From contig SCHM01000004.1 in the NCBI GenBank assembly GCA_004123355.1, positions 4,372,316 through 4,436,315 of the forward strand: 64,000 bases of DNA. The letters are read 5' to 3'. Positions 6,214 through 62,125 of the stretch are shown here, piece by piece; position 1 is the stretch's first letter, and the number at the start of each line of letters is the position of its first letter. The stretch comes from Amphirosellinia nigrospora. Its lineage: Eukaryota; Ascomycota; Sordariomycetes; Xylariales; Xylariaceae. The notes under the pieces are model-generated. The model did no database searches. It saw only the letters and a list, made by a program, of their open reading frames with translations, and had not been told where the DNA came from. The translations under genes were made by a program, and so were the position numbers.

Positions 6214-7847
6214 ATGATCTCCCTGGTCGGCGCTCCTCGGGGACTGCGCCTCCTGCTCCCGTTGAGCTTCTTCGCCCTCGTGCTTGTGCTTGGTGGTCTT
6301 TTTCACAAAACAGGGCAGACCAGCCAGCTTTTGAAGAGCATCCAGAGCATCAACGGTGGCGACCAGCAGCAAGCAGACGATGAGAGGCCCCATGTCCGCC
6401 CAACCAACACCCATCCTCCCCCCAAGTACAAGCCGACGTCAACCCTTGCCGTGCCCTCAGTAACCGACCCATTCCCTCTTCTGGCCTCGTCGACCGCCAC
6501 GCCGCCACCAATTCCCGAATACAACATTCCAAAGCCCGGCCTCCACCGCGACTATGGCCTCTCCTACATGCCGCCTCTCTTCATCGGCTTTACCCGTCAA
6601 TGGCCCATGCTCCTGCAGTGTGTCGTGGGCTATCTCACCGCTGGGTGGCCACCCGAGTCCATCTATGTTGTCGAGAACACTGGTGTGCAGAATTCGAATG
6701 CCGATGGGAAGCTGACGCTCCAGAATCCCTTCTATCTGAACCATACCACCCTGACCCGTCTCGGTATCAATGTACTGCAGACACCTGTGCTCTTGACCTT
6801 TTCGCAAATGCAAAACTTCTTCATTTCCACAGCCACTTCCCGCCAATGGCCATATTACTTCTATTCACATCAAGATGTCTTGGTCATGTCGTTCGAGGAT
6901 GGGCCGACACTATAAAACGCCCCGGCGATCGAGATTGGTTCTTTTATGACGACCAAGAAAAGGCAGATATCTTGCGCCCGGCAGCAGCGGGGCACAAGGG
7001 ATATAGGACCATCTACGAGAATTGTCTACGAGAGCTGAACCACACACTGGAAAATGAGAAGCGGTGGGCCTTTCGCTGGTTCCAATACGATCATTTAACA
7101 CTAGTGAACCGCGGCGCACTCGATGCTGTTGGCGGTTGGGATAGTCTAATGCCATATTATGGAAGCGATTGCGATATGAATGCCAGACTCGAGATGGACG
7201 GGTGGACCATGCGACATCGCCGCGTTGGGATAATCAATGATGTGTCGACCGTCTTGGAGGATCTTGCCGCATTATACCGCGATCCGAAGGTTGTGCCTAC
7301 ATTTGTTGATCCTAATCCGATTCCCGAAGAGGAGTTAGAGAAAGTGGAGCAGCCACATAAAGATGAGAAAACCGGCGATGATGAGTCATCCCAGGATGAT
7401 GGAACCGCGAGCGAAGAGACGAAGCCGGCAGAGCAACCCTCGGAGAAAGCCGCGAACAACCCCGCAGAAAAGACCGAGGAAAATTCCACGGAGAAACGGG
7501 AGGCAGAGAGCTTTAAAGGGGCTGTTGGGTCGGGAATTTCCCAGGCCATGGATTATTTTCGCGCCCTTCTCCAAGTTGCCGACGACATGGGGCAGTATAA
7601 ATATCGGAGCGAGAATACTGCGCGCAATTCCTGGCAGGGTAGCCAGCACGGAGGTGTTGGCGAGCCATACTATTACAACGCAGATGGTTTCGGTAAATCC
7701 TTCTGGATATTAGCTGAAGCTGGTCGCGAGGTTTTCCGTCAGAAATGGGGTCACCGCGACTGCGATCTGGTAGAGGAGACGGCTTTGCAATTAGACGATC
7801 AGTGGCGCGTTGAGAAGGACTGGGAAGATGCTCCGTCCGACTCATAG
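6214..7847 (+). CDS. Type II membrane glycosyltransferase-like protein
   Basis: The ATG at 6214 gives a short basic N-terminus and one hydrophobic segment at about residues 9-30, so the protein is probably a type II Golgi or ER membrane protein. A Pro/Thr-rich stem (about 45-110) precedes the catalytic-like part. Visible conserved blocks are FIGFTRQWPMLLQCVVGYL, WPPESIYVVENTG, SHQDVLVM, then RPGDRDWFFYDDQEKAD, VGGWDSLMPYYGSDCDMN and GWTMRHRRVG. The pattern of a nucleotide-sugar-like N-terminal fold followed by a GSDCDMN acceptor-side motif suggests a GT2/GT-A-like enzyme, but no specific substrate can be named. A Glu/Lys-rich linker (about residues 370-430) precedes a conserved tail. The frame switches once near 6895-6915; restoring one base closes the model at 544 residues. 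Single exon. Confidence 0.7.
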
Positions 7848-8473
7848 GAAATGTATAATTCTAACGTAATCATGGTAGCATTTGGTTTATAACGGACGGC
7901 GTTGGCATATGGTAGAGGGGTTGGTTGGTCGGTTGGGGTTTCACTGCTCCGACGTATTGTACTAGGAGACCTGTCTAGCGCCATGCATTTACTTGATCAA
8001 TCATGAACTTGGGGTAGGTGATAGTTAAATAATAATAATAAAACTTACACATTTGCAAGACGATTGCCAAAAAGGATGGTCTTATTAATGGCGAAAGGGT
8101 AGACATTACGGTTTCAGTCTCTACTACAATTGGCCTGGACGACGGACACGATAATTTCATTACAGAACTCCACCTCGTATTTTGCCATGGCATTACGTCG
8201 TGAGTGGGACGGAGAACGTCCTAAAACACCTAATGTCGCTATCTTGCCATCACGCCATCGCCTATACTTGTTAGTATTTACCTAGGTAAGATTATTTGTG
8301 CATTGTGAATAGCCCTAAAGCGGTGGGTAATGATCAATCCAAAAAGTGAGGTGAAGAATGTCATTGATTAAGCTAAGTTCTTCTGATCCAGGACCAGCCC
8401 GATTTAATCTATTTGGGTGGAGGTCAAGCCCCCACCATCACACCTGCCATTAGTACCGAGGTACGGCTCATAC

Positions 8474-8480
8474 TATATAA
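8474..8480 (+). promoter_or_regulatory. TATA box candidate of the Zn2Cys6 regulator
   Basis: TATATAA, 21 bases before the CGG repeat array and about 400 bases before the ATG at 8877, implying a long 5' leader. Confidence 0.5.
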
Positions 8481-8500
8481 GCTCTCTTGCGTGCAAGTTC

Positions 8501-8536
8501 CGGAGTGGTCGGAGCAATCGGAGCGATCGGAGCGGT
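8501..8536 (+). promoter_or_regulatory. Four-copy 9-bp CGG repeat, candidate Zn2Cys6 binding array
   Basis: Four head-to-tail copies of CGGAGNNNT (CGGAGTGGT, CGGAGCAAT, CGGAGCGAT, CGGAGCGGT). This gives CGG triplets spaced by 6 bases in direct orientation. Zn2Cys6 proteins bind paired CGG triplets whose spacing and orientation set specificity. The array lies 341 bases upstream of a Zn2Cys6 gene, so autoregulation is an obvious inference. Confidence 0.55.
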
Positions 8537-8876
8537 GAATCCCGCCCAAGCTAAATCGTCAAAGTCAGTCAAGGACCTGATGCTTTCCCACCTTCCGGGT
8601 TTGTCATGACCGAGAGACGTCCGGACTAAACAATACGCACTACACCGCCGCTCGCCGTTTGATTAATCGCTGACTAATCGGTCATTGTTGATTTGATGCT
8701 GGAGCCCGTGACCAACCCGCGATACCCTCAGAGCCCTATGGCAAAAAAGGGACGGAACAATATCTACCTAGAATTGACAAACGATTTGAATCTCTTTGCC
8801 ACACATCTCACTAGTCGAGCTCCGAGCCTCGAGTGTAAACCACCGGCATCGATCAGGCTCGAGCAAGGGTTGAGAT

Positions 8877-11379: not shown

Positions 11380-11751
11380 AATATGTGATTCAATGCATAT
11401 CTCAGTAAGTAGTGAAAAGCTCGTAACATCTACTCCTGCAGGTTCTAATGAGATAGCAGCCTAAACACGACACACCACTGGATCTTCATGGGCAGTAATC
11501 AAAATTTTAGGGGCTCTGTACTTGAGTTGAGTAATAGACACAGGTTGTTGCGCGAAGGTCTGTAAATCACCTTCGTATATTAATCTAACAGGTACATACA
11601 GAAGCCTTATTTTTGTGCAACCCCAGGTGTGCCTCGAGGTGCGAAGGCCGAGTTAAACGTCTCATGGATTTCTGGGCAGTGGATTGTTCCAACACCAAAG
11701 CTATTCCAATAGAGACCCGGACGTCAACGCCAAACTTAAGCTACTTTTCAT
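11380..11751. other. Convergent 3' intergenic gap
   Basis: Between the stop codons of the regulator (+) and the tyrosinase (-). It should hold both 3' untranslated ends; nothing else was seen. Confidence 0.6.
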
Positions 11752-13036
11752 CTACTCGTACCGATAACATAATCGTCCACCCAGAGGGTTGACTATATCG
11801 GCCATGACCACTCGTCCGCCAATATATCCAAAATCCAAAATATCTGAGATGGTTGCATTGGGAGACGGAGGACCTGTGCACTACGTTAATATCTTCGCAA
11901 AATAAAATCAAGATAATCTAGAGACTTACTGTTAGCCCATGTTTGCGTGTCCGATGTGACATATAGGCGATCCTTAAGCGATTGTCCTTGCCAGATAGCC
12001 CACAAACGATCCAACTGGCCATGGTGGAAGTAGAAGCCAGGGTCATTCGGTGAAGTAAAGATATCGGACAAGTCGCCACCGACAAAGCTGTGAGCCGCGA
12101 AGTGGACGCTCGTGTCCATCCGATTTCGAAAATCCCCCACAGTTGGCTGAGAAAGTAACGTGATCACGTTATCCTTGGTCAAGAAGTTTTGGGCAAGCAC
12201 CTGCAAAAAGTCGCGCGACAGACAACGCGGGTTGTACTCCAGTCCTGTTCGGTTTGAAACCCCTTCGACAGGGAAAACACGTCCGAGGGTCAGGGTAATA
12301 TTGGCAAAGGGCCCGTCGACGACGCAGCCTCCGCCAGTTCCCGGGGGCGAGTGATCACTACCGGCGTAGGCACTCCAGGGACGGTGCCATTGAGAGTGCC
12401 GTGTGGGACGGGGACGCCGTTTCCTCCCATGGAGTATTCGGAACCATCCCACATGGGGTCCTTGGTGTAGTCGTCGTTGTGAATCGACCAGTCCCAGTAC
12501 GGCTGAGCGCCCTTGTAACCGCATTCATCACGAAGTGCGGTTTCATACTGCCAGACCATGTACCTATGCCATGGCAGCAGCCATCCCTAGAACGGCAAAC
12601 TTAGTCGGTTTCCATGAGCCCTCGTCAATTCTATTGATCACCTACCGTGAAGTGGATGAAAAGGGTCTGATTAACATGGGACGCGGTGAAATCATCCATC
12701 CGGTTTCTCACTCCCGGTGCAAATGACCGCGAAGTTTTCGCAGGCTTTCGGCGCATGCATTTCACTGCGTCGATGTACTCCTTGCGCTCGTGCAAGGTCA
12801 GATTGTACCTGTGTAAAGTTGTCAATATACAGACCCGGCTGCTGATGACGACACTTACCAAGACTTTCTCACTCGTACGTTTTTTTCGTTGCAGTGACCG
12901 CCGTGTGCCCTTAGTTGGAGTTCGGATGACTGGCGATAAGCGTCAACGAATGAAGCAAGTTGGGAATCTGCTTCGCATGCACTATAGGCTGCCCCAGCAG
13001 CAGACTAGCCACGGAAATAACGGAGGAGAATCGCAT
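11752..13036 (-). CDS. Secreted tyrosinase (type 3 copper enzyme)
   Basis: Four exons on the minus strand: 13036-12859, 12808-12646, 12586-11930 and 11873-11752, with 50-59 base introns. The protein starts with a signal peptide (MRFSSVISVASLL). The CuA site is visible as DDFTASHVNQ, IHFTGW and PWHRY, the last two joined across an intron. The CuB site has HFAAHSFVGG and DPGFYFHHGQLDRLWAIWQ. GGCVVDGPF and the C-terminal FGYIGG are also typical. Length with corrections is 373 residues, the size of short secreted fungal tyrosinases without a large latency domain. The frame switches twice (near 12990 and in a C-run near 12350); one restored base each makes all phases close. It would oxidise phenols to quinones outside the cell or in the secretory route. 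Divergent from the binding-protein-like gene at 13667. Confidence 0.9.
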
Positions 13037-13666: not shown

Positions 13667-14764
13667 ATGCATATCCACCACGCCTTTGTCCCACTCGTAG
13701 CATCGGCTTCTATCGGTGCCTACCAAGTTGCCGCCGAAAACCGATCGTTGGAGCAAATCCACCAGGCTGCTTTGAAGGAAGGCGGAGTCGTGACCCTTTG
13801 GCATGGCGGGAGCGAACCACACCAACAGGATGCTCTCAAGAGTGCCTTTGAAGAGAGATTCCCAGGAATGACCCTGAACGTCAGCGTGAGGAGTTCTAGC
13901 TTCATGGGACCCGACATTGATCGACAAATCGCCGCGAAGAACGTCATCGTCGACAACGTCTATCTGCAAACTTTACAAGATTACCCACGATGGAAACACC
14001 AGGGAGTCTTGCTCAACTACAAGCCAGCCGGCTTTGACCAAGTCTACGACGTGTTTAAAGACCCCCAGGGAGCATGGGTCTCATCCACCGTCAACGCATG
14101 GAGCATCATCTACAACAAGGACAAACTGAACGGCATCGAGCCCCCTACATCGTTTACGGATTTCCTCAAGCCGGAATTCAAGGATAAGCTGATCTTCACA
14201 ACCCCGATCGACGACGACGCCGTCCTCAATACTTTCGATCACATGTCAGTAACCCCTAATTCTCCCTCACAGCACCTTTACTAACGTGAATGGCCACGAC
14301 AGCCTCAACACGTACGGCGTCGACTACTTCTGGGCGCTCCAGGCGCAGAATCCCAAATGGGCCCCCACCACGAGTCGATCGCAGGCCAGCTCGCGCAGCC
14401 CAACACGACCTACGCGGCCACCTTCGGCACGACGATCGGCCTGGTCTCGCAAGACCCTCTCGAGGTACACTTCCCGACCGACGGCGCGCCCTTCACCTCG
14501 TGGGCCCAGGGCGCCGCGATCCTGAAGGACGCACCCCATCCCGAGGGCGCCAAGCTGCTCCACAACTACGTGATCAGCCAAGAGTATCAGAACAAGACGG
14601 GCTCGTGGAGCATCCGCCGGGATTCCCCGGCTCCGAAGGGCTACGTGAACATCTTCGACACGCCGAACACGAACCCCGTCGACTTCGGCCACTGGATGTC
14701 TGACCGTGTCTATGTGGAGAGGCTGCGGTTCTGGTTCCAGGACAAGATTGGATATCCCGTCTAA
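13667..14764 (+). CDS. Secreted periplasmic-binding-protein-like (type II) protein
   Basis: Two exons, 13667-14244 and 14303-14764. The N-terminus has a signal-like segment (about residues 1-22, ending near QVAAEN). The mature part resembles bacterial ABC-transporter solute-binding proteins of the Fe3+/2-aminoethylphosphonate type: LEQIHQAALKEGGVVTLWHGG, FEERFPGMTLNV, DIDRQIAAKN, GAWVSSTVNAWSIIYNKDKL, PTSFTDFLKPEFKDKLIFT, then the C-terminal lobe with APFTSWAQGAAILKDAPHPEGAK. Such proteins occur widely in ascomycetes without a partner ABC permease and are usually regarded as ancient bacterial acquisitions. The frame switches once in a G/C run near 14360; with one base restored the model closes at 346 residues. 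The ligand is unknown. Divergent neighbour of the tyrosinase. Confidence 0.85.
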
Positions 14765-17240
14765 ATCCGCCGGTTAAAGTTCGCAGCGAGCGTAGATGAG
14801 GTTGTGTTACTTGCATTAGCCACCACTTTTGATAGACTTGGGTTTCAGTCAACTCGCCTGAGTTTGGTTGATTCATTTATTGTGTAACTAATAGGTGTAT
14901 TTATATTGTGTAATATACTTCTTGTATTCATATCATTTTGGCAAATTGTGTTCCCACCCCCCTGAGTCCTCAATTCCCTACCATTGTAGGAAGACGCGGA
15001 CCCTAAGTTCACTCTTTTGATTATCCCCCATGTACTATTCTGTACCCCTATGCTCAGCCCAGCGTCCCCCAGCCTCTTCTTCGGCACTACCTACGCGTCT
15101 AGACTTTGTCCAAACTCAAAGTGAGGGTCCGATCTCCCCTTGGCCCACCCAGTGAGTACTTTATAACCCATTTGAACATCAATGGCTAATGGCCTTGTTG
15201 GTAATGGTCTAACGATGTAGCGTTTGTATCTTTACTCCGCATCATTAGGTCAGGGGGTTCCATTCCCTCACTGGCTATTATCTATTATTATTTTCCTACC
15301 CCTTTTTCTCCCCCCCCCACCAACTAACCCCCTTTCCGTCGCTTGCGCTTTGTATTTATCTTCTAAACAAGCTTTTACTTATACCCCTTTACCATTTTAC
15401 CATGTGTAAACTCGTACGCAGTAACTATATGATCAATTGGTTTTGATGATTTAAGAAGGTTGCAAGTTATATATCATTTCGTAAAGAATATTTAAAACTA
15501 TATTTCTATGCTTATAAACAAGCTCACGACTTTGGGCTTGCTATGATTCCTATAAAACAAAGCATACGTGTCAACATAACTAAGAGACTTAGGTAGTTTA
15601 GTGACTAGCTTACAGCATAGAGCCACTCGGATGCTCTGCGCAGCAACAAAAATAAGCGTACCTCTCCTAAGAGATCCTGGGGGTATTAACTAGCATTGCT
15701 ATATTTCTCAACATTCAACTCCTAATAATATCGCGGTGTTTCTCAGGTTAGGTTGACGTGGCAATACTCATGCTATGCGATATAGGTCAACTACAGGGCC
15801 ACGAACCACCCGAATTCTCAAAAGGTTGAATAGTTTCCGATCCAATTTCGATATTGAATTGGTATACAGATAACACAAATCGTGTTTGGCACATTGTTTA
15901 ATATTTCCGATACAGGTTTAACAGAATGACATATCGTGAGTCTTTATCAAAACAATCTTCTGTAGCTAGTGTATCTCTCACTTCACTTAGTAACACACAT
16001 ACCAATTTACTTAGCTAACAAAGGCTACGCCTCGCTCGCATCACTGCGTTGCCATTACCAATTCATCCTTAATTTGTAATATAGACAGAATATTTTGCTA
16101 CAAGTAGACACTGTATTTAATCATGGGCATTTTATTGTTTTTATTCTCGGTAAACTACTTTAGCAGTTGCGTTGTTCAATTCACATTCGCAAATAACTAA
16201 AGTTAATTGCTATGAATGTGGTGTCTTAGTGTTACACGGATCTGGCATAAGTGCATTGGCTAAAGCAGTCGTACGAAGTTATCGTAAGTTTCAAGCAAAC
16301 ACCAAAGCTAAAACAAAATATTAAAACATTTAGTTTCTGGCTATACAGGTTTGTAGAAGTCCGCAAAAAATAGACGAAAAGAATTTTAGCATAAAATAAC
16401 ACGAATCCTTCCTCCTAGAAAATAGGAACTTAAATTTTTATGGCACTATTGGCACTATAGTTGTTTATTATTCAATTTGAACCAATTCCAAGCTCTCTAT
16501 CTGGACCCTTGTGACACCTAGCTAGAACTTGTAAAAGATTACTCGTTGGTCTTCATATATGATTAAGACTAGAAGGTGTCATTGATTCAGCCAATATACA
16601 GCACCATTCGGACAAAGGTCATAATAGCTCAGAAAGCGTAGCGCCACTCGATATCTAGGTATGTCTGAGCGCGTCATCTAGAAGTGGCTACCCAGCTACA
16701 TTCCAACTCGGCCTAGCAACCGTGATCACCAATGAGACAAACCGTTTCGGGTAGGTTTCTAGATAAACCTGAAGTTGGCCCTTTGTCTCAGATCTAGACC
16801 CAGAAAGCTGCAAGCGATTCTAAGCTGAACCAACCTCCACCCTGGTTACTGTTTTCAGTCAGAAGAGCGATATTTTGCGACTCCAGACAAAGAACTTGAG
16901 CCGCACCTTTGTCGTAGCTCTCGTTATTTACACCTTGGTGAGACGAGCTACACTTAGCTTCTAGTATGATCTTGGTCCCCCGAGTCTGTTCTCCTCCTCA
17001 TCCTCTCTTATGCATTCATGGTGCCTAGAACATAGGTATCCAAATTATAGCAAAACTGTTATATTTAACCTGCGCCCTTCCTCATCCTCCCTACCATCGC
17101 TTTTTATTGATCATCTTTGCATCTTTGAGCCAGTTTTACATCGCCTGTAGATATTACGGCCAGAGAATAAGACTGGGACTTGACTTTAATTACGGCAACC
17201 CTATCTGCTGACTCCGGCCGTGCCGGCTGCAGCGCCCAAG
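14765..17240. other. 2.5-kb gene-poor stretch
   Basis: AT-rich with scattered stops in all frames. I found no conserved protein pattern, no transposon ends and no tRNA. The last few hundred bases (about 16950-17240) are pyrimidine-rich and probably form the promoter and leader of the long gene that follows. Confidence 0.55.
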
Positions 17241-20200
17241 ATGGCATCCGACAACAATGATCTCAAATTCGTGGAGTATCTCGGGAATGTGGGCGTTGTA
17301 GAGAAAGAGAAAGCTTTGAATGAGTTCCTCGAGAAGCACGAGGAAATAGCCGTAACGGAGGACCCTATATCACCAAAGGTATACCAGGCGTTGATCGACC
17401 AGTACTTCGAACCGGCCAACGAAGAACGTACGTACATAATACAAGAGTTGAAGTCCGTAAGCGATTCAGACGTCGCGGCAAGAGAAAAGTACGATAGTTT
17501 TATCAAGACGCTCATCGACAACATTATCTTTCTCCATACTTCGCGTGAACTGGAAGAAGACGAAGAAGCACCACAACAAGGGACCGTGAAGTGGCTGGAT
17601 AAAAAATATGTCTATTTCACCAGCCTCATCAACGACGAGAACAACGATTTCATCGTAGACCACCTGACGACTATCCGGGCCTCGTTCGTTGCGGCCAAGG
17701 ATGAAGTTCTGGATGGGCCAGATTCACTTGTTAAAGCCAAAAAAGGTACAGCGACGACCGGCACTGGGAAGAGACCACCAAGTGAGGATGGCACTGCTGG
17801 TAATGGGCCAGTCGCGAAGAAGGCCAAACAGCAAATACCCTTCGGTAAATGGTGGGGAACCTACAAGGAGAAACTCAGCTGTCCCGACTCGTTTTTCGAG
17901 ACCATCAACCAGTCTAAGGAGTACCTCGCCAATCCCACGGACCTGCCGGGCACCAGAGAAAACAGGCTGCGGATGGTCGGGTTCCTCAGGAGGGCTCTCG
18001 ACGACGTCGGCCTGCGCGTCAAGTTGAACGAACTGCTCCTCATGACAGAGTTCGTGTTCCGTAGCCGGAGCTATACAATCAAGCGTGGGCCGATGTTCAT
18101 TATACCCGGCATCATGGAGAGTAGTTCACGTCTTGGCGCAGCTGGGTGGTATGGCCTAAACGACCTCAAGAAAATGTTGGGCGGCGGCTTCAGTCCGGAC
18201 GAGATATCGACGAAGAACTTGACACCCCCACCCGCAATCGCACAGGGCATGGTGGCATTAGCGAGATCGCAGGAGATGAGTGGATTACGTCTGCGTGGCG
18301 GCGGCAGCAGTAAGGTGGCAGACAAATACATCCACAAACATCCTTTCTCCAAGGACCCCAAACGAGTGACAAAAAGGATAGAAATCAGGGAGGGGATGGC
18401 ACACCGTCTCCGCGAACCAGCTGAGCTTTGGGACCAACTGCTAGAAGATGCTACATTTCCCAAGGGTGTGTGGATGCATCGCATTCACGAAAACCGCCCT
18501 CCTATGGTGGACCCAGGTCGCATGGGGCCACGAACCGCCGCTCGTTTTAAGAAAGCAGTAGAAAAGATACCTCGTGCTTCGGAGTGGGATCGTATCTCCA
18601 AGGAGGACGACGAAGGAACTCTTAGGTCATGGGCCGATACGTTCGCGGTTATTATAGAGACTGCGCGAGGTAGGGTGTATGACTTCCTGTATGGAAATCA
18701 TGAGATCTTTCCCGACGAGCCAAGCCTACTTCAGCCAAGTGGCAGGGACAGCCAAAGACTCGGTACGGGAAGACAATTACCGATAAGAGCTTCGCCAAGT
18801 TTATAGGGTATGCCTTCCGGGCCAGAGTATACCAGGCCCTCCGCTTTCACATAGTCTGGATCGATTATCTGCTGGGCAATCGCAAACTTGCGGAGCTACT
18901 GAAGGAGGAGAGGATACTTTATGAAGTGTGGAGCGAGCACGAAGACTTGTATCTGAACTGGGAGAATAACAAGTGGTTTGAGCTCTCGAACCCGTGGGAG
19001 ATTGCCAGTCTGGAGAGTCGTTACCAGTCTCGAGAAATCCTGCGCCTGCAATGGAAGCGGGAGATAGCCAAGATTGATGAGGCTATTGAGAATCTCAATA
19101 AAGACTCTCAATATTACAATGACCCTGCTAAGAACAAAGCGGAGGGCAAAGTAATTCCATCGCAGGAAGCCTCGTCTTATGTTCCACCGCCTGGTTACGC
19201 TGAGATCTTGGCCGCACTCGACGACCAACTAACAGGAAAGCAAAGCAAGCAGGGCAAAAAGCCACCCAAGAAGGGTCCGCCAAAGAGTCCGACTCCCGAG
19301 ATAATTGACCCAATGGATGTGGATGAGGATGAGGAAATGAGTGAGGGAGGCAACGACGATAACAACGACGGCAATTCCAAAGATGGCATGGATGTCGACA
19401 ATGAGTCAGAGGTCGATCCTTGGACGAATCCCGGGGCAAGACGGCCGTCGACAAGAGTGCAAAGAGCGCCACCAAGGATACTAGCGGATGCCTTGAATAC
19501 CTCTTGAAGACGCGCGATACGTACGACAAGAAGCTCAACGAATTAATCAAGATTAACAATACCCTAGACCCCCTCGATGTCGGAAATAGAGCCGCCATCA
19601 ACAGAAACAACCTTGACATCATGGCCAAGAACCAGGTCATTTGGTCCCTAGACACTGAGATCCACAACCTGAAGCGTGCCGTTGATCCCCTGGCCGATGG
19701 GAGCCATGGCAAAGGAGCGGATCACAGCTGGGAACTACCACCAGAGGATTATTACTACAAGTGGATCAAGCAGATTCCGAAGCAGCCAGAAGTACCCCTC
19801 GGACATACCTCTCTTGGCCGCGGGCCTCTGCCCGGCGCACATCCCAAGACTGGCCATCCTCGGGTCTTCGTGGGCGGCTGTGCAGAATTCGGCACAGCGC
19901 CGGACCCCGATGAAGAAGCAGGTGAACCAGTTTCTAAAGACGGGGGTCTTTTCGGCCCAAATAATGATAACAATAACAAGAACAAGAACAATACCTGGGG
20001 AAATAACGACAACGGATGGGATAATGATGGGAACAACGTCAACGGGACGACCGTGATGGCCACACCGGGTCAAGAAATCCTCGACAAAATCCGAGAATAT
20101 CTTCGGAGAAGCAACACAGCCGAGGTGACGATCCGACAGTTGTCTAGGGCCACGAGCAGCGGCAAAACGCTCAACGAGCTGCAGAAGAAGGCGCTCGAGA

Positions 20201-22241
20201 AAGCCCAGCAGACGAGGAAAGACAGCATAGCACTGGTCAAGAGCTTGAAAGACAGCACGGACGCGTACACACGGGCGAGGGCGGAGCTCGTAGAGCAGGA
20301 GGAGCGAGAGAAGTTGCTCGCGCAGATCAAGCTGGCGGACGAGAGTGCAGACAAGGCCGAGAAGAACTACGAGCAGACCACTGACTTTGCGGCCAGCATC
20401 CAGAAAGAGATGAAGCTCCTGGCCGAGAAGAATAAGAAGGAGGCGGAAGCGGCGGAAGCGGCTAAGAAGGCCAAGTTAGCAGAGGAGGCTGCGAAGAAGA
20501 AGAAGGAGAGGAGGAGGAAGCGGCGGAAGCGGCTAAGAAGGCCAAGTTGGCAGAGGAGGCCGCGAAGAAGAAGGAGGAGCAAGCCACCCAGCCGAAATCC
20601 ACGATTGGACTAATTCCGAAGCCCGAGATCGACACCGAGACCTCAAATGAAAAACTGCTGCTGCATGCAATACAAGTGGAAGAGAATTCTCGGAAGGCGC
20701 GCAACGACGCCCGGGCTGACTACGAGGACGCTGTAGATAAAGCGGATCTGGCGCAGAGCGCGGTCAAGGCCAACAGTAGCGACCCAGAGCTAAAAGACAA
20801 ACTAGTCGCGGCAGAGGACGAGGAAACCGATGCGGCAATACATTACAGTGAGTGGATAAACTACCACCGGATAGCCCACGAGGCCGTGGAGTCGCAGATG
20901 CGGTGGTACGAACCGGCCGAGATGTTGGATCAGCTAGAGAACCGGTTCAAAGAGCTGAAGATGGAGTTTCAGCACTGGATCAACGGGCGCGAATGGGGTG
21001 ACTACAGCGGTGATAATGGACATATGATGGAAGAATGGATCCTGAACTGCTCGAGCCTCATCTTCCAGTCTCTGAAGGCCGTAAACATCAACCCAGGAGT
21101 GGACTGGTGGTGGGAGATGCATGAAGGCTTTTGGAATGTGCCTGCAGCGACCATAGATAGGAAGCGCAAGATTTGGCTCTTCACCACTATCCGACAACTG
21201 AACCACCGTCTCTCGCAAATGGAACCTCCGATCCCGCCCTTCCTCGAGCTACCGCCACAACCTCCGGCGGATTGGGAGGAGCCCACACCAAATCCGTACG
21301 ACCTCATCGAAGCCGAGCATATTCAGCTGGGTTTGCCGGGGCCAGAGTCAGAGGATGAGGAAGCATCGGTTCCATCACCGGTTCCAAAAACGGTTCAACA
21401 CCCGCTGACCCCGAAGCCGACCCCTGATCCAGTTCCTGTGACGGGGCCTCAAATAACGGTACAAGGACCATCACCGAAGACTGCAGTGACGAAGTTGCCA
21501 GTAATACTGGAGGGAAAAACGGTATCAACAACACCGAAGGTCACAACACCGAAACCCGAAACGACGACGACCCTGAAGCCGCCACCGGTTTTGGTCCTGA
21601 AAAAGGAAACGACGTCGCCGAAGCCTCAACCGGTTTTGGTCCTGAAAAAGGAGGAAACGACGTCGCCGAAGCCTCAACCGTTTTTGGTCCTGAAAAAGGA
21701 GGAAACGACGTCGCCGAAGCCTCAACCGTTTTTGACCCCGAAGCTACAATCGACGACAACCAAAGTCTCGCCGAAAGTAAGCCCGCCAAAACCGCCGCCG
21801 ACCACCACCAAGACAACAGCGACGACGACGGACACCTACCAAAGAACCGCTGAAGACAACCACGGGCTATCGGTGCCGACGGTAATGACGAAGTGGCCAT
21901 CGCCGCCGAAGAAGACGGAGACGTGGAAGTCGGTGACCACGACCATGACCAAGACCACGACTAAGAAACCCAAGGTCAGCACACCTAACATGCCAGCGAC
22001 GACAAAACAAGAACCAACGCCGCCGACCACCACCGCCGAGCTCACGGGGTTGGGTGAGGGCGGCGGGCAGAACGACGCGTGGCCCGAGCTCTCGGAGCTC
22101 GTCGTGGCGACGTGGACGAGCCTCATGGCGCACGATGCCCTGAGGCAGAAGGAGGGCGATACCTCCAACGTCCCGGGACCTGACCGGTCCCTGTGGCCGA
22201 AGCCCGTGTACAACGCACAGTCGGACACGTACTGCCTATAA
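17241..22241 (+). CDS. Very long fungal protein of unknown function (about 1,667 residues) with coiled coils, repeats and an LRLRGG motif
   Basis: I do not recognise the family. ATG 17241 (MASDNND) is the first in-frame ATG. The N-terminal 500 residues look like folded, conserved protein: PFGKWWGTYKEKL, RMVGFLRRALDDVGL, FIIPGIMESSSRLGAAGWYG, ELWDQLLEDATFPKGVWMH. Residues 349-354 read LRLRGG, identical to the ubiquitin C-terminus. A second aromatic-rich segment follows (FAKFIGYAFRARVYQALRFH). Next come an acidic MDVDEDEEMSEGG segment, an Asn-rich tract near 19965-20040, long Ala/Glu/Lys coiled coils (about 20080-20580), another folded segment (WWWEMHEGFWNVPAATIDRK) and a Pro/Thr/Lys-rich tail with tandem repeats. 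A nuclear-signal-like KKAK lies near residue 195. The frame switches three times (near 18750-18790, 19430 and 20510), each cured by one base. No introns were evident. Confidence 0.75.
20440..20575 (+). repeat. Imperfect coding duplication (Ala/Lys/Glu coiled-coil unit)
   Basis: Two copies, about 55 bases each, encode AEAAKKAKLAEEAAKKK within the long gene. A frame switch falls between the copies, where purine-rich repeats make base-calling and assembly hard. Confidence 0.75.
21577..21738 (+). repeat. In-frame coding minisatellite, 45-48 base unit
   Basis: About three and a half head-to-tail copies encode variants of ETTSPKPQPFLVLKKE. Copies two and three are nearly identical in DNA, implying recent expansion. 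The array lies in the Pro/Thr/Lys-rich tail of the long gene and keeps the frame. Confidence 0.85.
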
Positions 22242-30261: not shown

Positions 30262-32910
<2,649 letters not shown>

Positions 32911-36805: not shown

Positions 36806-38107
36806 ATGCCTACCGAATTAGAAGAGGTAATTCATGATAAATAAAGATTTACGTGGACCACGGGCTGAATCTTAATGTCTGACAGTTAGTCGGCCTGGTG
36901 GTCGATCCTAACCCCAGGTCCGAGTTATCGCGGCAGAGCATCTCGTGCCATATTCGATATCACAACCCAATATTTTTAAGGTCGAAAACCTCAAACCCAT
37001 TCACAATTTAAAACTTTTAATTAAGGATCTCCAGTATGTTTATAACAATTGCATCCTATCCCCAACCCAGGCAATTCAAGGTGAGCTAACCACATGCCTC
37101 TTGGTAGAACACTGCTGAGCACATCATTACAATTCTCATTAATCTCTCTGCCGATCATGAGATACTAGAGAATTTAGCCTCAGATGACAAATTTATATCT
37201 GAGGTTTTAAGACAAATCATCGTAAGTACATGAACATGCATGACTAAATCACAATCCTGATTTTGATCAACCAACTACGGACTTGCTAACGCTTACAAAA
37301 TAGGTCCCAACTGACCTAACGCGAACCTCCTTCTATGTTACTTGCAAATCTTGCTAAATCGGATTCTCTCAAGACTATTTTGCATAAAAAGCAGACGCCA
37401 CCAGACGAACTCAAGTCTGATGAGATGGTGATAAACCAGCTAGTCGATCTCTTTGTCAAAGAAGCGGCATACAACAAGCACGCCGATTTCGATCATCTAT
37501 CTTACCTATTTGCCGATCTCACCAAACACGCCGAGGTACGGCATCACTTTGTCCGCAGGCAGGACTACGACGGCGTCATCCCCATCACGAAGCTCAAAGT
37601 CTTCACAGAAACAAGTCAAATATACGGCGAAAGGGGGTCGCATCAACTATAAAAAATGTAGCCTTTGACGTGCCATCACACCCGCTTTTCATATCTGAAG
37701 ACGATATCGATATTCTACCTTACATTTTACTGCCCATCACAGGGAGTGAGGAGTATGACTTGGAAGAGACAATGGCGATGCTGCCGGATCTACAGCTCCT
37801 GCCCCCGGATAAGCAGCGAGATTCAGATCCCAACATTATCCAGACCCACGTCGAAACTTTATTATTACTATCAACAACACGACAGGCGAGAGAGCGCATG
37901 CGCGAGGTCAAGGTGTACCCAATCATCAGGGAGACGCACGCGCGGGTTCATAACGAGGACGTCCAGGACGCTTGCGACCGGCTAGTGCAAGTCCTTATGC
38001 GGGATGAGGAAGACGAGAAGACGACATCACGTGTGGAAGAGATAGGGGAAGTCAAAGAAGGCGAAAAAGAGGATGAGGATGACGATGATCAGATAGTCGA
38101 GGTGTAA
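36806..38107 (+). CDS. HGH1: HGH1 homologue (FAM203; DUF383/DUF384 armadillo-like protein)
   Basis: Start MPTELEE at 36806 is followed at once by an intron. Blocks in order: LVGLVVDPNPQVRVIAAEHL, IHNLKLLIKDLQ, HIITILINLSADHEILENLA, MLLANLAKSDSLKTILHKK, FDHLSYLFADLTKHAEVRHHF, VASTIKNVAFDVPSHPLF, DILPYILLPITGSEEYDLEE, PIIRETHARVHNEDVQDACDRLVQVLM, then an acidic tail. This is the DUF383-DUF384 arrangement of yeast Hgh1, a cytosolic chaperone needed for folding of elongation factor eEF2. At least four introns. Frame switches near 37310-37330 (two) and 37612 (one) are each cured by one base. Confidence 0.87.
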
Positions 38108-45405: not shown

Positions 45406-47199
45406 ATGCCGCCACTCTCAGGACCCGAGGTCGCGAAACATAATGGCAAAGAGTCATGCTGGGTCGTAATACACGTATGAGACTTCTATCGGGGTGTATG
45501 TGTTTGGGTTAGAAGCTTATATGAGATGATCTGATAGGGAAAAGTATACGATGTTACAGAATTCCTACCAGGTGAGCTTCGACCCTTTGTCCTATTGATG
45601 CAAGCAAAATATTCTAGTGTTGCTTACATAGAGATGCAGAACATCCCGGTGGGATGAAGATCATACTAAAATATGCTGTGAGTATGAGTACCCTCGGACT
45701 CAGATTCCCGTATGTTGACAGACACATGCAAAGGGTAAAGATGCAACTGAGGAGTTCGACCCAATTCACCCCCCAGACACCCTAGACAAGTATCTAGACA
45801 AGTCCAAACACCTGGGTCCCGTCGATATGAACACTGTCGCCAAGGTAGAGGAGGTCGAGGACCCGGATGAGGCCGCGCGGCAGCAGCGTATTCAAGAAAA
45901 GCCTCTGCTTTCGCAATGCTACAATTTGATGGACTTCGAGTCTGTCGCTAAGAACGTGATGAAGAAGACAGCTTGGGGATACTACTCCAGCGCGGCGGAC
46001 GACGAAATAGTATGTGCCTCATTCTTACCCCTTTTCTCTGATGCAACGTCATATACCAAAGGGGGGGTCAAACCAGCTCCTAGCTACTTTAAAACGAGTC
46101 GATATTGACACGAGAACAATCTAGACACTACGAGAGAACCATGAGGCCTTCCACCGTATATGGTTCCGGCCTAAGGTCCTCGTCGATGTGAAGAAAGTCG
46201 ATTTCAGCACGACTATGCTCGGCACTAAGGTGGATATGCCATTCTATGTTACAGCGACAGCTCTTGGTAAACTCGGCCACCCCGAAGGTGAAGTGGTCCT
46301 AACACGGGCGGCACACAAGCACAACGTGGTGCAGATGATCCCGACGCTGGCGTCGTGTTCATTCGATGAGATCGTCGACGCGCGGCAGGGCGACCAGGTT
46401 CAATGGCTGCAGCTGTACGTGAACGCGGACCGGGCCATCACGGAGCGTATCGTGCGGCACGCCGAGGCGCGCGGGTGCAAAGGGCTCTTCATCACCGTCG
46501 ACGCGCCTCAGCTCGGCCGCCGCGAGAAGGACATGCGCTCCAAGTTCGTCGACCAGGGTCCAACGTGCAGGGTGGTCAGGAGACGGACACGTCGCAGGGC
46601 GCCGCACGCGCTATCTCCTCTTTTATTGACCCCTCGCTCTCGTGGGCCGATATCCCCTGGTTTCGATCCATAACCAAGATGCCCATCGTACTCAAGGGCG
46701 TGCAGCGCGTCGAAGACGTCGTCAAGGCCGTCGAGTGCGGCGTCCAGGGTGTCGTGCTCTCCAACCACGGCGGCCGCCAGCTCGAGTTCGCGCGCTCCGG
46801 CGTCGAGATCCTCGCCGAGACGATGCCCGTGTTGCGGTCCATGGCCTCGAGAATAAAATCGAGGTCTTCGTCGATGGCGGCGTCCGCCGCGCCACAGATA
46901 TCCTCAAGGCCCTCTGCCTTGGTGCGAAGGGTGTCGGAATCGGCAGGCCGTTCCTATACGCTATGTCTGCGTATGGCCTCGATGGCGTTGATCGCGCCAT
47001 GCAGCTCCTGAGGGATGAATTAGAAATGGGCATGCGCCTCATTGGGTGCACAAGCGTTGATCAGCTTAACCCGTCACTTATTGATACTCGGAACTTGGGC
47101 AGCCATATCACTGGTGTGCCGGTCGATAGTCTTGGACGTAAGGTGTATGACGCTCTTGCGACGCCGGCGTGGAAGACGCCGAAATCATCTAAACTATAA
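45406..47199 (+). CDS. CYB2: Flavocytochrome b2-type L-lactate dehydrogenase (FMN-dependent 2-hydroxy acid dehydrogenase with cytochrome b5 domain)
   Basis: Five exons: 45406-45474, 45538-45572, 45640-45677, 45734-46009 and 46125-47199. The N-terminal cytochrome b5 domain has VAKHNGKESCWVVIH, VYDVTEFLP, EHPGGM and DPIHPPDTLDKYL; the two His residues (HPGG and PIHPP) are the usual heme ligands. The FMN domain has FESVAKNVMKKTAWGYYSS, FRPKVLVDV, PFYVTATALGKLGHPEGE, WLQLYVNADR, FITVDAPQLGRREKDMR, MPIVLKGVQ, LSNHGGRQL (catalytic His) and DGGVRRATDILKALCLGAKGVGIGRPF. No extra mitochondrial presequence precedes the b5 domain, so a cytosolic enzyme is possible. Frame switches near 46558 and 46850 lose one base each; one extra A in an A-run near 45540 is the reverse case. 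Corrected length is 497 residues. Confidence 0.92.
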
Positions 47200-49693: not shown

Positions 49694-52600
49694 TCAGTGG
49701 TCCATAAGTCCAATACCATCGAATCCGACGCCTTGGGCTCTGCTACTCCTCCCTCTCGTAGCTGTCGCCCTGCCCGTGAAGCCGCCTGACCGCTCGTAGA
49801 CCTCTTGGAGGTAGCACCTTTCTTCTTGACCCCTGGAAATTTGCCGCCCGAGGATCGCCGAGATGCGTATTGTCCCTTACCGCCGCGACCCCCCCTTCCT
49901 TTTCCGGCACCGGCACCGGTACCGGCGCCTGAGTTACGACCGCGAGACTTGGAGGACGAGGCTTCCTGTTGGTTGGCGCGATGAAAACTCTCCATGAAGG
50001 CCTTCTCTGTAACCGAAGGTTCGAAATAGCCCGAGGTTTCGCCGCCTTCTTCGTCATCATCGTCATCGTCGTCGTCATCTTCTATGGCTTCCATATCCTG
50101 GTCTCCGTCGTCTTCGTCATCATCATCTGTCGTCACCAAGTCTACAATTTCTCCCAGGAGAGGTAGAGCGCGCGGTTCTGGTGACAGGCCCATGATTTCC
50201 TGATATTGCTGGCGGTATCGTTGAATTAACGGGAGCAGTTTATTGCCGTGTCGGGTTACCATATCTTCGTCAATGCCCGGGATCCGCCGCATTTGGTCCA
50301 AAGTAGAAGTCCACCGTAAACCCATCTCACGTAGTTGAAGTTGGGAGAAGAGAGGTTTTCGATAACCGTGTGAAGCCCTGACCTTCTCTTCCATTTTTTT
50401 AGCGTCCTCGAAGAAGCTCTCAAGGATATCCTTTTGTACCTCCGTGAGACTTTCCTCGCTTAGACGAGCATCACGAGATATGGGTGGCCCAACCGGGTTT
50501 GGGTTCATCCGCCGACGTCTAGCTACAGGAGCCGGCATGGTTTCAAAATCGTCGTCCGAGAATCCGTCATCCACGACAAACCCATTGCTGCGGGAGCCGA
50601 AATCATCATCACTCTCTTCGTCGTAATTCGCCACAGCCTTTCCTTTCTTCTTGGCGGACGATTTTCGCGCTGGCGAGGACACTAGCGTCGAAGTGAACTG
50701 CGCCGTACGTCCCTTTCTAGTTGCCGGGGCTGCCGGTGTGTCTAGCCGCTGCTGGGTCTTGGGGGGCCAACCAAACTACCGTCGCTCTTGACTCGAGTAG
50801 TCAACCAGAGTTGGCGTCCCCCGGCTAAGAAGGAGTGCGCCGTCCGTCCAATCTAAAGCATGGTGTCAACTCAAAAAGCGATCATCGGTCCTGGAAGCAT
50901 GCTTACTCTGAAGTACTGGAATGCCATCTTCACTGTCGCTTTGAATACATTTTCCTCTTTCAGTGCTTCTTCTGCAAGCAGTCGGTCGACAATACGATGC
51001 ACTTCGTGCTTAGGCATATGCTTGGCTATGCCATAGAATTCTGGTACTGTGTAATCGGCTTTCTTCTTCTTGCCCATGAGATAGTCGGTGCACTGTGCAA
51101 GCGTCACCCTCCCGCCGACCTCACAATCTCCAGTACAGCAAGCGCATACTTGGTGCGGTCTTTCTGTTGAAATTTGTCTTTCGACTTGCAGTTATCGCAG
51201 TTGGCGTTGCATTGAGCTTTGTTAAACGTTTCTCCAAAGTAACGAAGTATCTCAACCCGACGACAGTCACTTTGGTTATCACAGAAAGCCGCTACCACGT
51301 TAAGCATATTCTCTGGCGCTCTCTTTTTCTTCGCTACCATCGCCGTCGTTGATCAGCTTCCGAAGTTGGGTGAGATCCCCATATCCAAAGTACAGATAAC
51401 ATTCAGATGCCTCGCCATCACGGCCCGCACGTCCAGTTTCCTGATAGTACCCCAAGGCTCTTGGAACAGATTGGTGGATAACAAAACGCACATCGGGCTT
51501 GTCAATGCCCATTCCGAAAGCAATTGTAGCAACGACGACTTTGATTTTTCCCTGTTGCCAGTCTCGCTGTATTCGCGCCTTTTCCTGCGATTCCACGCTA
51601 GCGTGATAGTGATGAGAGGAAATCCCATAGTCTCTCAATTTTTTCGCGATGGTCTCCGCGGATTTTCTAGAGAGAGTATAAACAATACCAGTTTCCCCAG
51701 GGTATTTTGAATTGATTAAATCAGCGATGGTTGCAGTGTTATCCTTCTCTTTTCGCCGGACTTCGTAGTACAGGTTGGGTCGGTTGAAACTTTGCGTAAA
51801 TTGCTCACACTTATCAATGCCTAGATTGTGCTTGACATCCATGATGACGTTCTGGGTTGCAGTCGCCGTTAGTGCCATGATTGGGACTTCTGGGAATCGT
51901 TCCCGAAAGCTGCCCAGCTGCTTGTAGTCCGGTCGAAAGTCATGACCCCATTGACTAACACAATGCGCCTCGTCGATGACGAGACGAGCAAGTTTCTTGT
52001 TACGGTAGAGACAACCCAAGCCAATCAGGAAAGCTTGGCTCTTATTTATCATCTCGGGTGTAACATAAAGGAGCTGAAAGTAGTGTTCTGGGAATGGTTG
52101 CTTTAAGGCATCCATGATCTCCTTCTTCGCCGCAGGCGTAGTATCTCCATTGAAAGTCGCCGCGGCAATATTAAGCGCCTTGAGGTGCTCAACTTGATCT
52201 TGCATTAAACTGAGAAGGGGGGACACAACGACGGTGATTCCGTTGGTTTTGCCGCTAGTTACCACAGCAGGCAGCTGGTAACAAAGAGACTTGCCGCCAC
52301 CAGTAGGCATTAAGATGAAGGCGTCCTTCCCAGCAAGTGTGGCATTAATCGCTTCAAGTTGATTGTGTCGAAAACCAGTCATCCTAAATCGATCTTTGAG
52401 CGCTCGCTTAACATCCTTGTACCACGGGAATCTTCTTTGACGAGCTAAAACTGGAGTAGCCATTGCGTTTTGTCTTTTCCTGACAGCAGATTTTTCCTTA
52501 CGTGCCCCTAGATTACCCGATGTCTCGGAGAGCACAGGTCGCGTGGACGGGGAGGCCTAGCCTCCGAAGACGACTGCTGAAGTTCTATCTCCTGAGCTAA

Positions 52601-55166
52601 CTCTGAAATGTCGATGTCATCACTATAGTCACTTTCATATCCCTTTCTCTGGAGGGCTGCTTCCTTTCTTGGGCTCCTGCGGTTCTTTGAAGCGCTCGAC
52701 TGATGTATGCTTCGTGTTGCTCTAGGTGGATCAAGTCTTGGTGGAAGGTCATGGACGTCAAAGAGATCTTCTTCATAGTCCATGGGATCAGAGGGTTGAT
52801 GTGGGGCTGGTGGTGCCGTTCTAATGTCTCTTGGAGCCATAGGCCAATGTTCTTCACCCCGGGCTGCACGCCGAGGCGACAGCGAAGCAAAGTGCTGGCT
52901 ACCATTCCCTTGTGAGTTAAAAGTCTCGCTCGGACGGGGTCAAAGCTCGGTCGATGAGAACCAAGTCGTGATGGAACTTGCGTCTGCATTATAACCTGGG
53001 TGCTTCCCATCCCCGTAACCTGGCTAGATTCCCGAGACAAAGTCAAAGGTACTGTGAGTTGGGCAGCTTGTGTAGCTTGCACGACTGACTCGGACCGTTT
53101 GGTATGGGGACCATGAGCTGATTGAGTTTCATATTCGTTAGGATCTTTGATATCAGCGTTGGATAAGTACGTCTTTAAGGAATCTTGACGGGTTTTGAGT
53201 TGGCCGTCCAGTTCTTGCAAATGAGCCTCATCATCATCCGTGTTTAGGTCGTGCTCGTATGCGTCAGCAATACGTGCGATGAGTGCATCCCTCTTCGCCA
53301 CCAAATCTTCATAAGACCGGTACTCCTTGGCGAGAAGATCTAAAGATAACTGCTGCTTTATCAACTTCTCCTTATCGCGTCTAAGTTGTTCTCTAGGCTC
53401 AAGAGAGCCCTCCTGAAGTGACATTTTGAAGCGTTCCCTATTCTGCCGCAAGCCCTCTTCCAACGATACTCGCTTCATCTCGAGAATTGACGGTTGATGG
53501 AGAAACAACTGGACCATTGCCGACAACTTCTCGTCGTCGTTGTGAACACTTATTTGGCTACTATGGGGGGCGTTCACGGGTTTATCAACTTCGATCGCCC
53601 GTGGAATTCAACAGGTTTGATTTGAGATTGTTGTTGTCGGTGGGCTTTCTGAGGCGAGCGTGCTACAGTTACGGTTTGGCTAGAAATTAGCGGTTGGGTC
53701 CTTGTTCTTGAAGGCGTGTCTTGAACGGCAGTGTAGTGATCACGTTGAGAGCCAGGAAGTCGCTTCGTGGGGCTGTCGGTTCGCAGAACTAGGCTTTCAG
53801 TCTCGTGGTGAGCAGGTGGAGTCATGGGTTCGTCATCCGAGTCCTGTATAATCCGTTCATCATTCTTCACACGTCGCGATGCTTTCGCCTGTTGCTTCGA
53901 AACATGCTTCACTTCACTTCCAAATAAGGAATCCGAGTCTGAAAGCATTAGGTCTAACTTCGCCTCGAAGACTTCTAGTTTGTCCAAGACGGTGTTTTTC
54001 TTGGGAGTTTTCGACGGGGACTTTTTGATATGCTGAGTTTGGATAAGGGATGCATCATAAGTCAGGTTTGTTCTCTGCTTCGAAGGAGTATTTGGGACGG
54101 CTGTTAATTTAGAGGGCGATTTACTAGGGCTGGTCTTGATCTTGCTCCGAACCGGTGACTTTGTCGGAGACCGCTTCGGCGAAACATGCAGACTTTCGTC
54201 GTCAGATAGAATGTCCATGATGTCTTGAAAATCATCAATAGACGCAATAGGGGGTGGCTGGCTGATCTGGTCGCTCTTCCGCTTCTTCCCACGCTTGCTA
54301 GCTTGAGGCTCCGGACGCCAGGCAGCTTCCTCCTCCCACACCATGACATCGTTCCCAAACGCGACAGATTCTTCATCTGGGGAAACAGGGCCAGATCGGC
54401 TAGCGTAATCCTCACGCCAAATCATCTTAGTGCTCCCGAACGCGACCGAGTTCTCACTGGGGGTTATAGGCTCGGGTCGAGAGGCGAAATCCTCCCGCCA
54501 CAACTGGGTTTCATTCCCGAAAGCAGCGGAAATCGAAGACGTCCGCCTGCTATCGGCAGTCAAGTCAATGATGTCGGCGATAGCCCCTGGCGGTGGGATT
54601 ATGCTCCCGGCCCGCGATTCGGACAAGGCAGACTGGGCATTTTGGGTAGCCGTCCGATTCTTGGCCGCATTCCTAGCTATGGAGGCAGAATATTCGCTCT
54701 CAAGCGAAATGGGCGCGGTCGCCGTTGTCGAGGCTGGCGAGAGAAGCTGTTCCTGTCGGAGGAGTAGGTTTGGCCTCGTTGTGTTTGGCTTGGATGCGAG
54801 GCGGCCCATGTTCTCAACTACCGTGCCCCCTTCTCCTCCTCCTCCTCCTCCTCCTCCTGCTCCTGCTCCTTGTTGGTTCTCCTGCAATCTGCCGTTCGAC
54901 ACGGTAGCCCCATGTGACGAGGCAGAGGGACGACTCGGTTCCCTGGGCAGGACGGGATACAGCTCAGCAGTGGTGGATTCATTCGGACGCGGGGCGGGCG
55001 ACAGTCCTGCAGTGGGCGTAAAGAACACAGTCTCGTCGGTAGGTGAGGATTGCGTATCGCTGGGCTCGCGTGCGGGTGGCAATGCGGGCACAGTTGCGTT
55101 GGGTGTGAGCGAGTTGATATGAGCCAAGAGCCACGACAGTTGATCGTTGAGGTTGTTTCGAGTCAT
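49694..55166 (-). CDS. SGS1: RecQ-family DNA helicase (Sgs1/BLM; QDE-3/MusN type)
   Basis: The minus-strand start MTRNNLNDQLSWLL at 55166 is typical of ascomycete Sgs1/MusN/QDE-3. A long disordered, acidic N-terminal region (55166-52500) carries repeated FGNxxxxWREDxASRPxP units at about 54300-54520 and a coiled coil near 53300-53500. The helicase core (about 52400-51350) has FILMPTGGGKSLCYQLPA (Walker A), VIDEAHCVSQWGHDFRPDY (DEAH), MALTATAT, VVVATIAFGMGIDKPDVRFV and YYQETGRAGRDG. A zinc/RQC region follows (RVEILRYFGE, CDNCKS) and an HRDC domain (about 50450-50200). The C-terminus is acidic then Gly/Arg/Ser-rich. The end at 49694 (GIGLMDH) fits fungal homologues; another frame stays open to 49462. 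Several one-base frame switches occur (for example 53580 and 51115). Role: recombination and replication-fork repair; QDE-3 is also needed for quelling in Neurospora. Confidence 0.93.
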
Positions 55167-60133: not shown

Positions 60134-60140
60134 CTTATCT
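60134..60140 (-). promoter_or_regulatory. GATA site (AreA/AreB type)
   Basis: AGATAAG on the minus strand, 334 bases before the nitrate transporter ATG and 32 bases from the NirA-type site. Confidence 0.45.
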
Positions 60141-60171
60141 CGGGACTTGGAGTCGCGATCTACACATCGAC

Positions 60172-60181
60172 CTCCGCGGAG
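60172..60181. promoter_or_regulatory. NirA-type site, palindromic
   Basis: CTCCGCGGAG. The left 8 bases match the Aspergillus NirA consensus CTCCGHGG, and because the sequence is a palindrome both strands match. It lies about 293 bases upstream of the nitrate transporter ATG. Confidence 0.6.
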
Positions 60182-60236
60182 ACGATTTATGTGGGCTTGG
60201 CGTGCGCTGCTTGCAGCCCGATCCCACTCCAGACCT

Positions 60237-60243
60237 CTTATCC
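60237..60243 (-). promoter_or_regulatory. GATA site (AreA/AreB type)
   Basis: GGATAAG on the minus strand, 56 bases after the NirA-type palindrome. Confidence 0.4.
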
Positions 60244-60473
60244 GGAGATGCACCGTAGATGCGCAGACCGCCTCGGAATAGTCGTCGTGGTATTCTGAAT
60301 GCTCGTATGAGTATCATGAGCTGTTATAAAGCGACGAAGTGCTTTCAGACTGGTCCTAATGCTCCACTGAGCCGGAGCTTTTAAGAGATATCTAAAAGAG
60401 AATTTGATATTGTATATTTTGATTTGTTTCGAAAACCCAGTAATTTTCCCACTCGATTAGACTAAAAATCGCC

Positions 60474-62125
60474 ATGATGAAGGCGTCGTATCTCTGGGCT
60501 TCCCCTGAGATCAATCCCGTCAACCGCAAGGCTCGATCAGTGCCTATATTCAATCCTTATGACGTATATGGCCGGGTGTTCTTCTTCTCATGGTTCGGCT
60601 TTATGGTTGCGTTCTGGGCTTGGTACACCTTTCCACCTCTTGTAAGTCGTCATGTCAGTCCTCGGTATATATGTCTTTTCTCACGGCTACCAGATAACCC
60701 ACGTTATCAAAGTCAACCTTCATCTCACACCAGCACAAGTGGCCAACTCCAATATCGTATCACTTATTGCAACGTAAGTCACCGACTACTTAAAATGTAA
60801 TCAGTACTATTTTCAAAACTCACAAGGTGGATTAGATTGTTCATTCGATACCTAGCTGGCCCCCTTTGTGATCAATTCGGTCCCCGCCAGGTGTTCGCGG
60901 GCATCCTCTTCATCGGCGCTATACCCCTCGGGCTCGCTCCTCTGGTCCATGATGCCACGAGCCTATACATCTCTCGTTTCTTCCTTGGTATCCTCGGCGG
61001 GTCATTCGTACCCTGTCTAGTCTGGTGTACTGGATTCTTCGACAAGAACATCGTGGGCTCCGCCAACGCGATTGCTGGCGGCTGGGGTAACGCCGGAGGT
61101 GGCATTACCTATTTTATGCCTGCAGTCTTCGATTCTCTCAAGGAACGTGGATACGACGATGGACCGCCTGGCGTCTGACATTTATCGTGCCCTTAATCGT
61201 GGTCATCGCAACCGGGATCTCCATGCTCCTCCTATGCCCCGATACACCGACAGGCAAATGGTCTGAACGGCTCCTCCGCACCGAACAAAACCTCGAGTCC
61301 CACGGTGTTGCCGGAAAAGACGATGTCATCGTCGACATACCCGGCGACATCACGGCAAAGAAAAGCTACACAGCCAGCAAGTGCTCTGACTCGGAGGCGG
61401 AAAAACATATCAAGGACCACGGCTACGATAAAGAAACCGCTCTATCCGAAGGAGAGATGTTGGAGATCGCCCAATTCGAAACAGTGCAAAAGCCCACACT
61501 CGTAGGGGCACTGGAAGTCCTCGCGTCGCCGCAGACCATTTTCCACCTCATCACATACCTATGTTCGTTCGGTGGCGAGCTGGCCATCAACTCCATCCTC
61601 AGCGCCTACTACGTGAAAAACTTCCCCCACATCAGCTACGCGTACGCGGCAAACGTGAGCGCTATCTTCGGCTTCCTCAACCTCGCGTCGCGGCCGCTCG
61701 GCGGCTTCGTCTCGGACTACCTGTACAAGATCACGGGCCGGAACCTCTGGGCCAAGAAGATCTGGATCGTGGTCTGCGGCGTGTTGACCGGCGCCCTCCT
61801 GATCGTCATCGGGCAGCTGGACCCTCACAGACTACCAGTCATGCTTGGCCTCGTTACGTTGATGGCCCTGTTCCTTGAGGCCGGCAACGGCAGCAACTTC
61901 GGCCTCATCCCGCACGTCCACCCGCAGGCCAACGGCGTCGTCTCCGGCACCACCGGAGCCGCCGGCAATTTCGGCGGGGTGATCTTCAGCATCATCTTCC
62001 GCTTCATGGATAACGGCACGAACTACGCCAAGGCGTTCTGGGTCATCGGTGTCATCACCATTGCCCTTAATCTCATCCTCTGCTGGGTGCCTCCTGTTCC
62101 ACGGGGCCAGATCGGTGGCCGATGA
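60474..62125 (+). CDS. nrtA: High-affinity nitrate transporter (CrnA/NrtA, NNP family MFS)
   Basis: Three exons: 60474-60641, 60694-60773 and 60827-62125. Blocks: [114 protein letters not shown] (nitrate signature 1), the central cytosolic loop with [48 protein letters not shown] and [21 protein letters not shown] (nitrate signature 2). Both signatures and the long central loop are typical of fungal CrnA. One frame switch near 61163 is cured by one base, giving 515 residues. Plasma-membrane nitrate uptake is the expected role. No nitrate or nitrite reductase lies within the window. ATG 60474 or 60477 are both possible. Confidence 0.93.

Follow-up and report, generated by a model that had tools for sequence, protein, structure and literature searches.

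Frame switches in a 64-kb window of the Amphirosellinia nigrospora genome most likely reflect residual single-base errors of the assembly

Introduction

In two reports on residual errors (PMC8812927; PMC12007338), long-read-only assemblies are described as retaining indels that break reading frames. The frame switches analysed here resemble the cases presented there, with small indels or frameshifts in otherwise intact genes across the whole genome; they differ in that those accounts concern errors of homopolymer length, whereas the homopolymer link is weak in the coding genes studied here. Fungal introns provide a second point of comparison, since Xylaria genes can have many or nested introns (stwintrons) that mimic frame changes, as set out in an article on these introns (PMC12403724). 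The likeness to these Xylariaceae genes is that numerous introns can pass for frame changes; the difference is that the two bystin and KRR1 introns tested here have no second match in the genome, nesting being a candidate only.

Based on alignments, profile matches and comparisons of gene copies, we conclude with little remaining doubt that the frame switches stem from consensus errors left in the assembly, most of them the loss of a single base, whose source is most likely under-polished long reads. They are thus most likely an artefact and not a real feature of the fungus. According to this explanation, the genes would be intact in the living organism, the breaks existing in the assembly only, and single lost bases would be spread throughout the genome as leftover consensus error.

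Results and discussion

Gene content of the window

The window, that is the whole stretch of 64,000 nucleotides that was analysed, corresponds to C6:4372316-4436315 in a genome of 48.1 Mb on 11 contigs. Its gene set is ordinary: a HET gene, a Zn2Cys6-type factor, a tyrosinase, a solute-binding-protein-like gene, a Xylaria-specific long gene, a PP2A-like phosphatase, AreB-like, KRR1, bystin, HGH1/DUF383, a phosphate permease, a flavocytochrome-b2-like gene, a RecQ helicase, DUF1275 and NrtA. The AreB name was taken from an earlier sequence-only reading of the window, and the flavocytochrome b2 identity is suggested by the combination of FMN_dh and Cyt-b5 domains. NrtA from the window shares 89% identity with the Xylaria longipes protein, which, together with the 98-99% identity of PRP8 to Xylariaceae proteins described below, identifies the organism as a Xylaria-like ascomycete; full-length PRP8 and NrtA are listed in relatives. 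The long gene (17190-22238, plus strand) is fast-evolving; its five database matches, all from Xylaria or Astrocystis, have 42-58% identity, and it contains internal repeats of about 83-86 bp. In the RecQ helicase (50500-53000, minus strand), which was left out of the switch count, the zinc-binding and RQC parts alternate between frames. Neither Rfam at gathering scores nor ARAGORN found an RNA gene in the window; the RNA-gene tests were therefore drawn from the rest of the genome.

Frame switches in the window

The analysis used a custom protein-to-DNA aligner permitting one- or two-base gains and losses plus GT/GC..AG introns, a comparison of Pfam match positions across the three frames of one gene, and a reading of the open frames. 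Where the sequence-only reading had seen single missing bases throughout the window genes, we count 13 places where the frame switches as after a one-base loss, seven of them firm (all -1, backed by a reference protein or a profile), two weaker (bystin and KRR1) and four supported by open-frame reading (AreB-like, two in the phosphate permease, and the binding-protein-like gene); most of the frame changes in bystin and KRR1 are introns. The statement that almost every long gene changes frame was too strong, the changes in the PP2A-like gene being intron-sized. In 19 simulated control alignments, built from 15 NrtA and four long-gene relatives back-translated with random codons, the aligner introduced a single false intron but not one frame switch, and the switches in the window thus exceed chance.

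Three of the firm sites come from protein alignments on the plus strand. In NrtA, a one-base loss near 61164 (61155-61168) was placed by frameshift- and intron-aware alignment with the agreement of 5/5 Xylariaceae NrtA proteins; the gene also has two canonical introns (60642-60693 and 60774-60835), and its identity to the closest relatives is 89-90%. The Xylaria-specific long gene has one-base losses near 18747 (18742-18754) and near 19433 (19430-19442), each found with all five reference proteins; a pair of gains in the same gene (17526/17569, 4/5 references, net three bases) may be real divergence and was left out of the count. The other four firm sites come from profiles. Positions 28-91 and 81-213 of the tyrosinase domain (PF00264) match in two frames around a one-base loss at 12356-12400 on the minus strand, where the DNA exceeds the length of the profile by about 35 bp, yet no consensus-donor intron fits. 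In the flavocytochrome-b2-like gene (plus strand), PF01070 positions 18-164 are followed in the -1 frame by 171-268, placing a loss near 46545 (46535-46556), and these in turn by 269-349 in the next -1 frame, placing a second near 46835 (46828-46843). Finally, HGH1/DUF383 matches PF04063 positions 12-113 and 108-188 in two frames around a loss near 37610 (37601-37619, plus strand).

The open-frame sites are hand-overs of the same kind: near 26727 at a C run in the AreB-like gene (26722-26738, minus strand), near 42465 in the phosphate permease (42452-42472, plus strand) and near 14360 in the solute-binding-protein-like gene (14355-14375, plus strand). At the second permease site, near 43104 (43098-43112, plus strand), the frame across a 139-bp intron (42963-43101) fits only with a one-base loss. 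Six sites at C or G runs had been named from the sequence (near 12350, 14360, 25477, 26727, 42465 and 43104); five of them carry a -1 switch, and 25477 gave no resolved switch.

Introns and lost bases

Such switches could also be ordinary spliceosomal introns mistaken for lost bases, and for part of the window introns are the correct explanation: they account for most of bystin and KRR1, for the cytochrome-b5 exons and for the PP2A-like gene. The cytochrome-b5 part of the flavocytochrome-b2-like gene (45406-45805, plus strand) was modelled as four exons and three GT..AG introns, with no indel needed. The extra A that had been proposed near 45540 lies at an intron boundary; the exons 45406-45474, 45538-45571, 45634-45677 and 45734-45805, when joined with nothing removed, score 90.4 bits.

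The conserved part of bystin/ENP1 (33525-34984, minus strand, PF05291) was modelled as 10 exons of 17-150 bp and eight GT..AG introns of 48-152 bp, in two parts flanking the switch. Profile positions 88-232 read through six introns (213.4 bits to PF05291) and positions 233-290 through two (77.5 bits). The three two-base losses once suspected here have accordingly given way to eight canonical introns that carry the profile from 88 to 290, with the exception of one -1 site, the N-terminal third being outside the model. This site is a possible one-base loss near 33945 (33933-33990, minus strand), where position 232 is in one frame and 233 in the next with 56 bp between them; it could alternatively be a 47-bp GTTACA..ACAG intron with a poor donor, and the PDB hits for this segment are not strong enough to favour either.

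KRR1 (31314-32758, plus strand) was modelled as nine exons of 12-205 bp (the shortest being 12, 21 and 28 bp) and seven introns of 50-201 bp, in two spliced parts on either side of the stretch from 32111 to 32249. Its second KH domain, read through introns, reaches 106.5 bits to KH_KRR1_2nd. A C-terminal one-base loss near 32765 (32755-32790, plus strand) is probable but weak: positions 278-318 of PDB 5jpq_g match the -1 frame in a low-complexity tail with E = 0.0025, the upstream part scoring 81.6 bits in the other frame. The exon ending near 32111 (32105-32115, plus strand) lacks the expected GT donor, possibly because a base has been lost from the splice site. KRR1 and bystin are convergent, intron-rich ribosome-assembly genes with exons down to 12, 17, 21 and 28 bp; in contrast, the aligner found no intron in PRP8 and two in NrtA. 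When two KRR1/bystin introns were searched for other genome copies, as members of an introner family would have, each matched only itself.

A frame-restoring intron with a consensus donor was absent at 9 of the 12 window sites searched (all but the second permease site), and candidates were found at three: the long gene at 18747, HGH1 and KRR1. An intron is likewise possible at the remaining bystin switch. Against this, the matched positions at the firm sites leave little or no room for one, and introns leave PRP8, the tRNA genes and the 5S rRNA genes unexplained. We therefore regard introns as a highly unlikely account of the switches as a whole.

Indispensable protein genes elsewhere in the genome

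The case against decay had been made in part from KRR1 and bystin, essential genes that decay should spare. These are poor witnesses, being mostly introns with the least certain of the remaining switches; the same point is firmly made by PRP8, which is indispensable for splicing. Within its 7.1 kb on contig C1 (region 5601000-5609000), PRP8 has six indels (four one-base losses, one one-base gain and one two-base loss, the last at a C run near the gene start), which lie at the same positions with all five references (X. longipes and four others); the protein is 98-99% identical to those of the five Xylariaceae. The 10 CCT gene clusters (14.2 kb) contain five losses and three gains or two-base losses with no fitting intron; these indels fall in five clusters, four having no indel junction and one being unclear. 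The 14 proteasome clusters (6.5 kb) contain one loss and one gain or two-base loss, 12 of them having neither. Intron-sized junctions (six in CCT, eight in the proteasome) were excluded from these counts. The three families measured thus carry about 0.3-0.9 indels in each kb of coding sequence, and at this density indel-free CCT and proteasome clusters are as expected and give no support either way. Together with the tRNA and 5S rRNA genes treated below, the affected genes are located on contigs C1, C4, C5, C6, C7 and C10.

Losses outnumber gains across the genes compared, the ratio of one-base losses to gains being 4:1 in PRP8, 5:3 in CCT, 1:1 in the proteasome, 1:0 in NrtA and 3:0 in tRNA, with one undirected tRNA difference in addition; the CCT and proteasome "gains" may instead be two-base losses. 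The one-base gain in PRP8, supported by 5/5 references, is nevertheless a counterpoint to the error reading.

That 13 frame switches occur in one 64-kb window might suggest local decay, the window being a degenerating pseudogene region. The same kind of change is present on other contigs in PRP8, CCT, the proteasome, tRNA and 5S genes, however, and decay should leave substitutions beside the indels, whereas the five tRNA differences come without any, NrtA is still 89-90% identical to its closest relatives and PRP8 98-99% to its references. Decay, already argued against by the sequence-only reading, is extremely improbable given that indispensable genes elsewhere are likewise hit.

Homopolymer runs

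The placement of many switches at C or G runs was another element of the sequence-only reading. Summed over 22 switches, the longest nearby C/G runs reach 63, where 54.5 +/- 4.0 is expected (p = 0.026); the 11 sites that lie outside the window give p = 0.31, and A/T runs near the switches had no effect (p = 0.46). The 22 sites comprise 11 of the 13 from the window (all except KRR1 and the second site in the permease), seven CCT junctions, two of which turned out on later classification to be intron-sized or unclear, and four PRP8 sites, with no tRNA or 5S site; the intervals are imprecise, mainly in CCT and tyrosinase. The link to C/G runs in coding genes is thus weak. As run association is the usual mark of nanopore error, this is a second counterpoint to an origin in assembly error, and a model restricted to homopolymers is poorly supported by these p values. 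Relative to a simple Markov expectation, runs are not clearly depleted in the window, except that long A runs are few.

Genes that are not translated

Copies of RNA genes can be compared with one another. We sampled 38 of the 58 listed tRNA genes, namely the 30 best-scoring and the eight lowest, and defined a sister as a copy that is identical or within three edits once strands are aligned. A sister was found for 28 of the 38; five of these 28 are set apart from it by length alone (one or two bases), with no substitutions, a rate that is raised by the inclusion of the lowest scorers and is not unbiased. The copies L122, L124 and L127 (by one base) and L128 (by two) are shorter than two to six identical sisters, which they match at every other position. 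The members of the pair L036/L054 differ by one base in length, and with one copy of each form loss and gain are indistinguishable. Three of the five length differences lie outside runs of three or more.

Among the 33 5S rRNA copies, 17 lack at least one single base relative to the consensus, and none has a one-base gain. Eleven copies are gap-free, and larger changes (longer gaps, inserts or rearrangements) mark the five copies L112 and L118-L121; L120 and L121, on C9 and C4, carry inserts or a 3' half of unrelated sequence. Eleven copies have a gap at the same C run and may be natural alleles or variants.

Most switches have one sign, as would be expected of programmed ribosomal frameshifting acting genome-wide. 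Yet both signs are present in PRP8, and tRNA and 5S rRNA are untranslated and still changed in length, so that recoding is no explanation for them; its probability is close to negligible. Insertional RNA editing, as in slime-mould mitochondria, is compatible with the sequence because coding and non-coding RNA genes show losses alike. The bases would then be truly absent from the genome and be restored in mRNA, tRNA and rRNA, an idea to which we give virtually no credence.

Residual deletion error of the assembly, which the sequence-only reading had favoured, is thus upheld by PRP8, CCT, the proteasome, tRNA and 5S. Assembly error is preferred over biology because the losses also affect indispensable and untranslated genes, genome-wide. 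The errors are spread over the genome and are not confined to translated genes; a long-read platform and a lack of polishing are their probable source. Claims of gene absence, pseudogenes or frameshifts based on this assembly would be unreliable, and at such indel densities many genes probably look disrupted in the assembly alone. The comparison of sister tRNA and 5S copies provides a test of assemblies that needs no reads and can be used on others.

The sole longer tRNA copy is L123 (C4:9402022-9402157), a copy of the L031 tRNA with a 63-bp insert in its 3' part and one substitution. A search of the genome with this insert returned only the insert itself; its sequence (GTAAGC ... CTAAC ... 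AG) resembles a spliceosomal intron.
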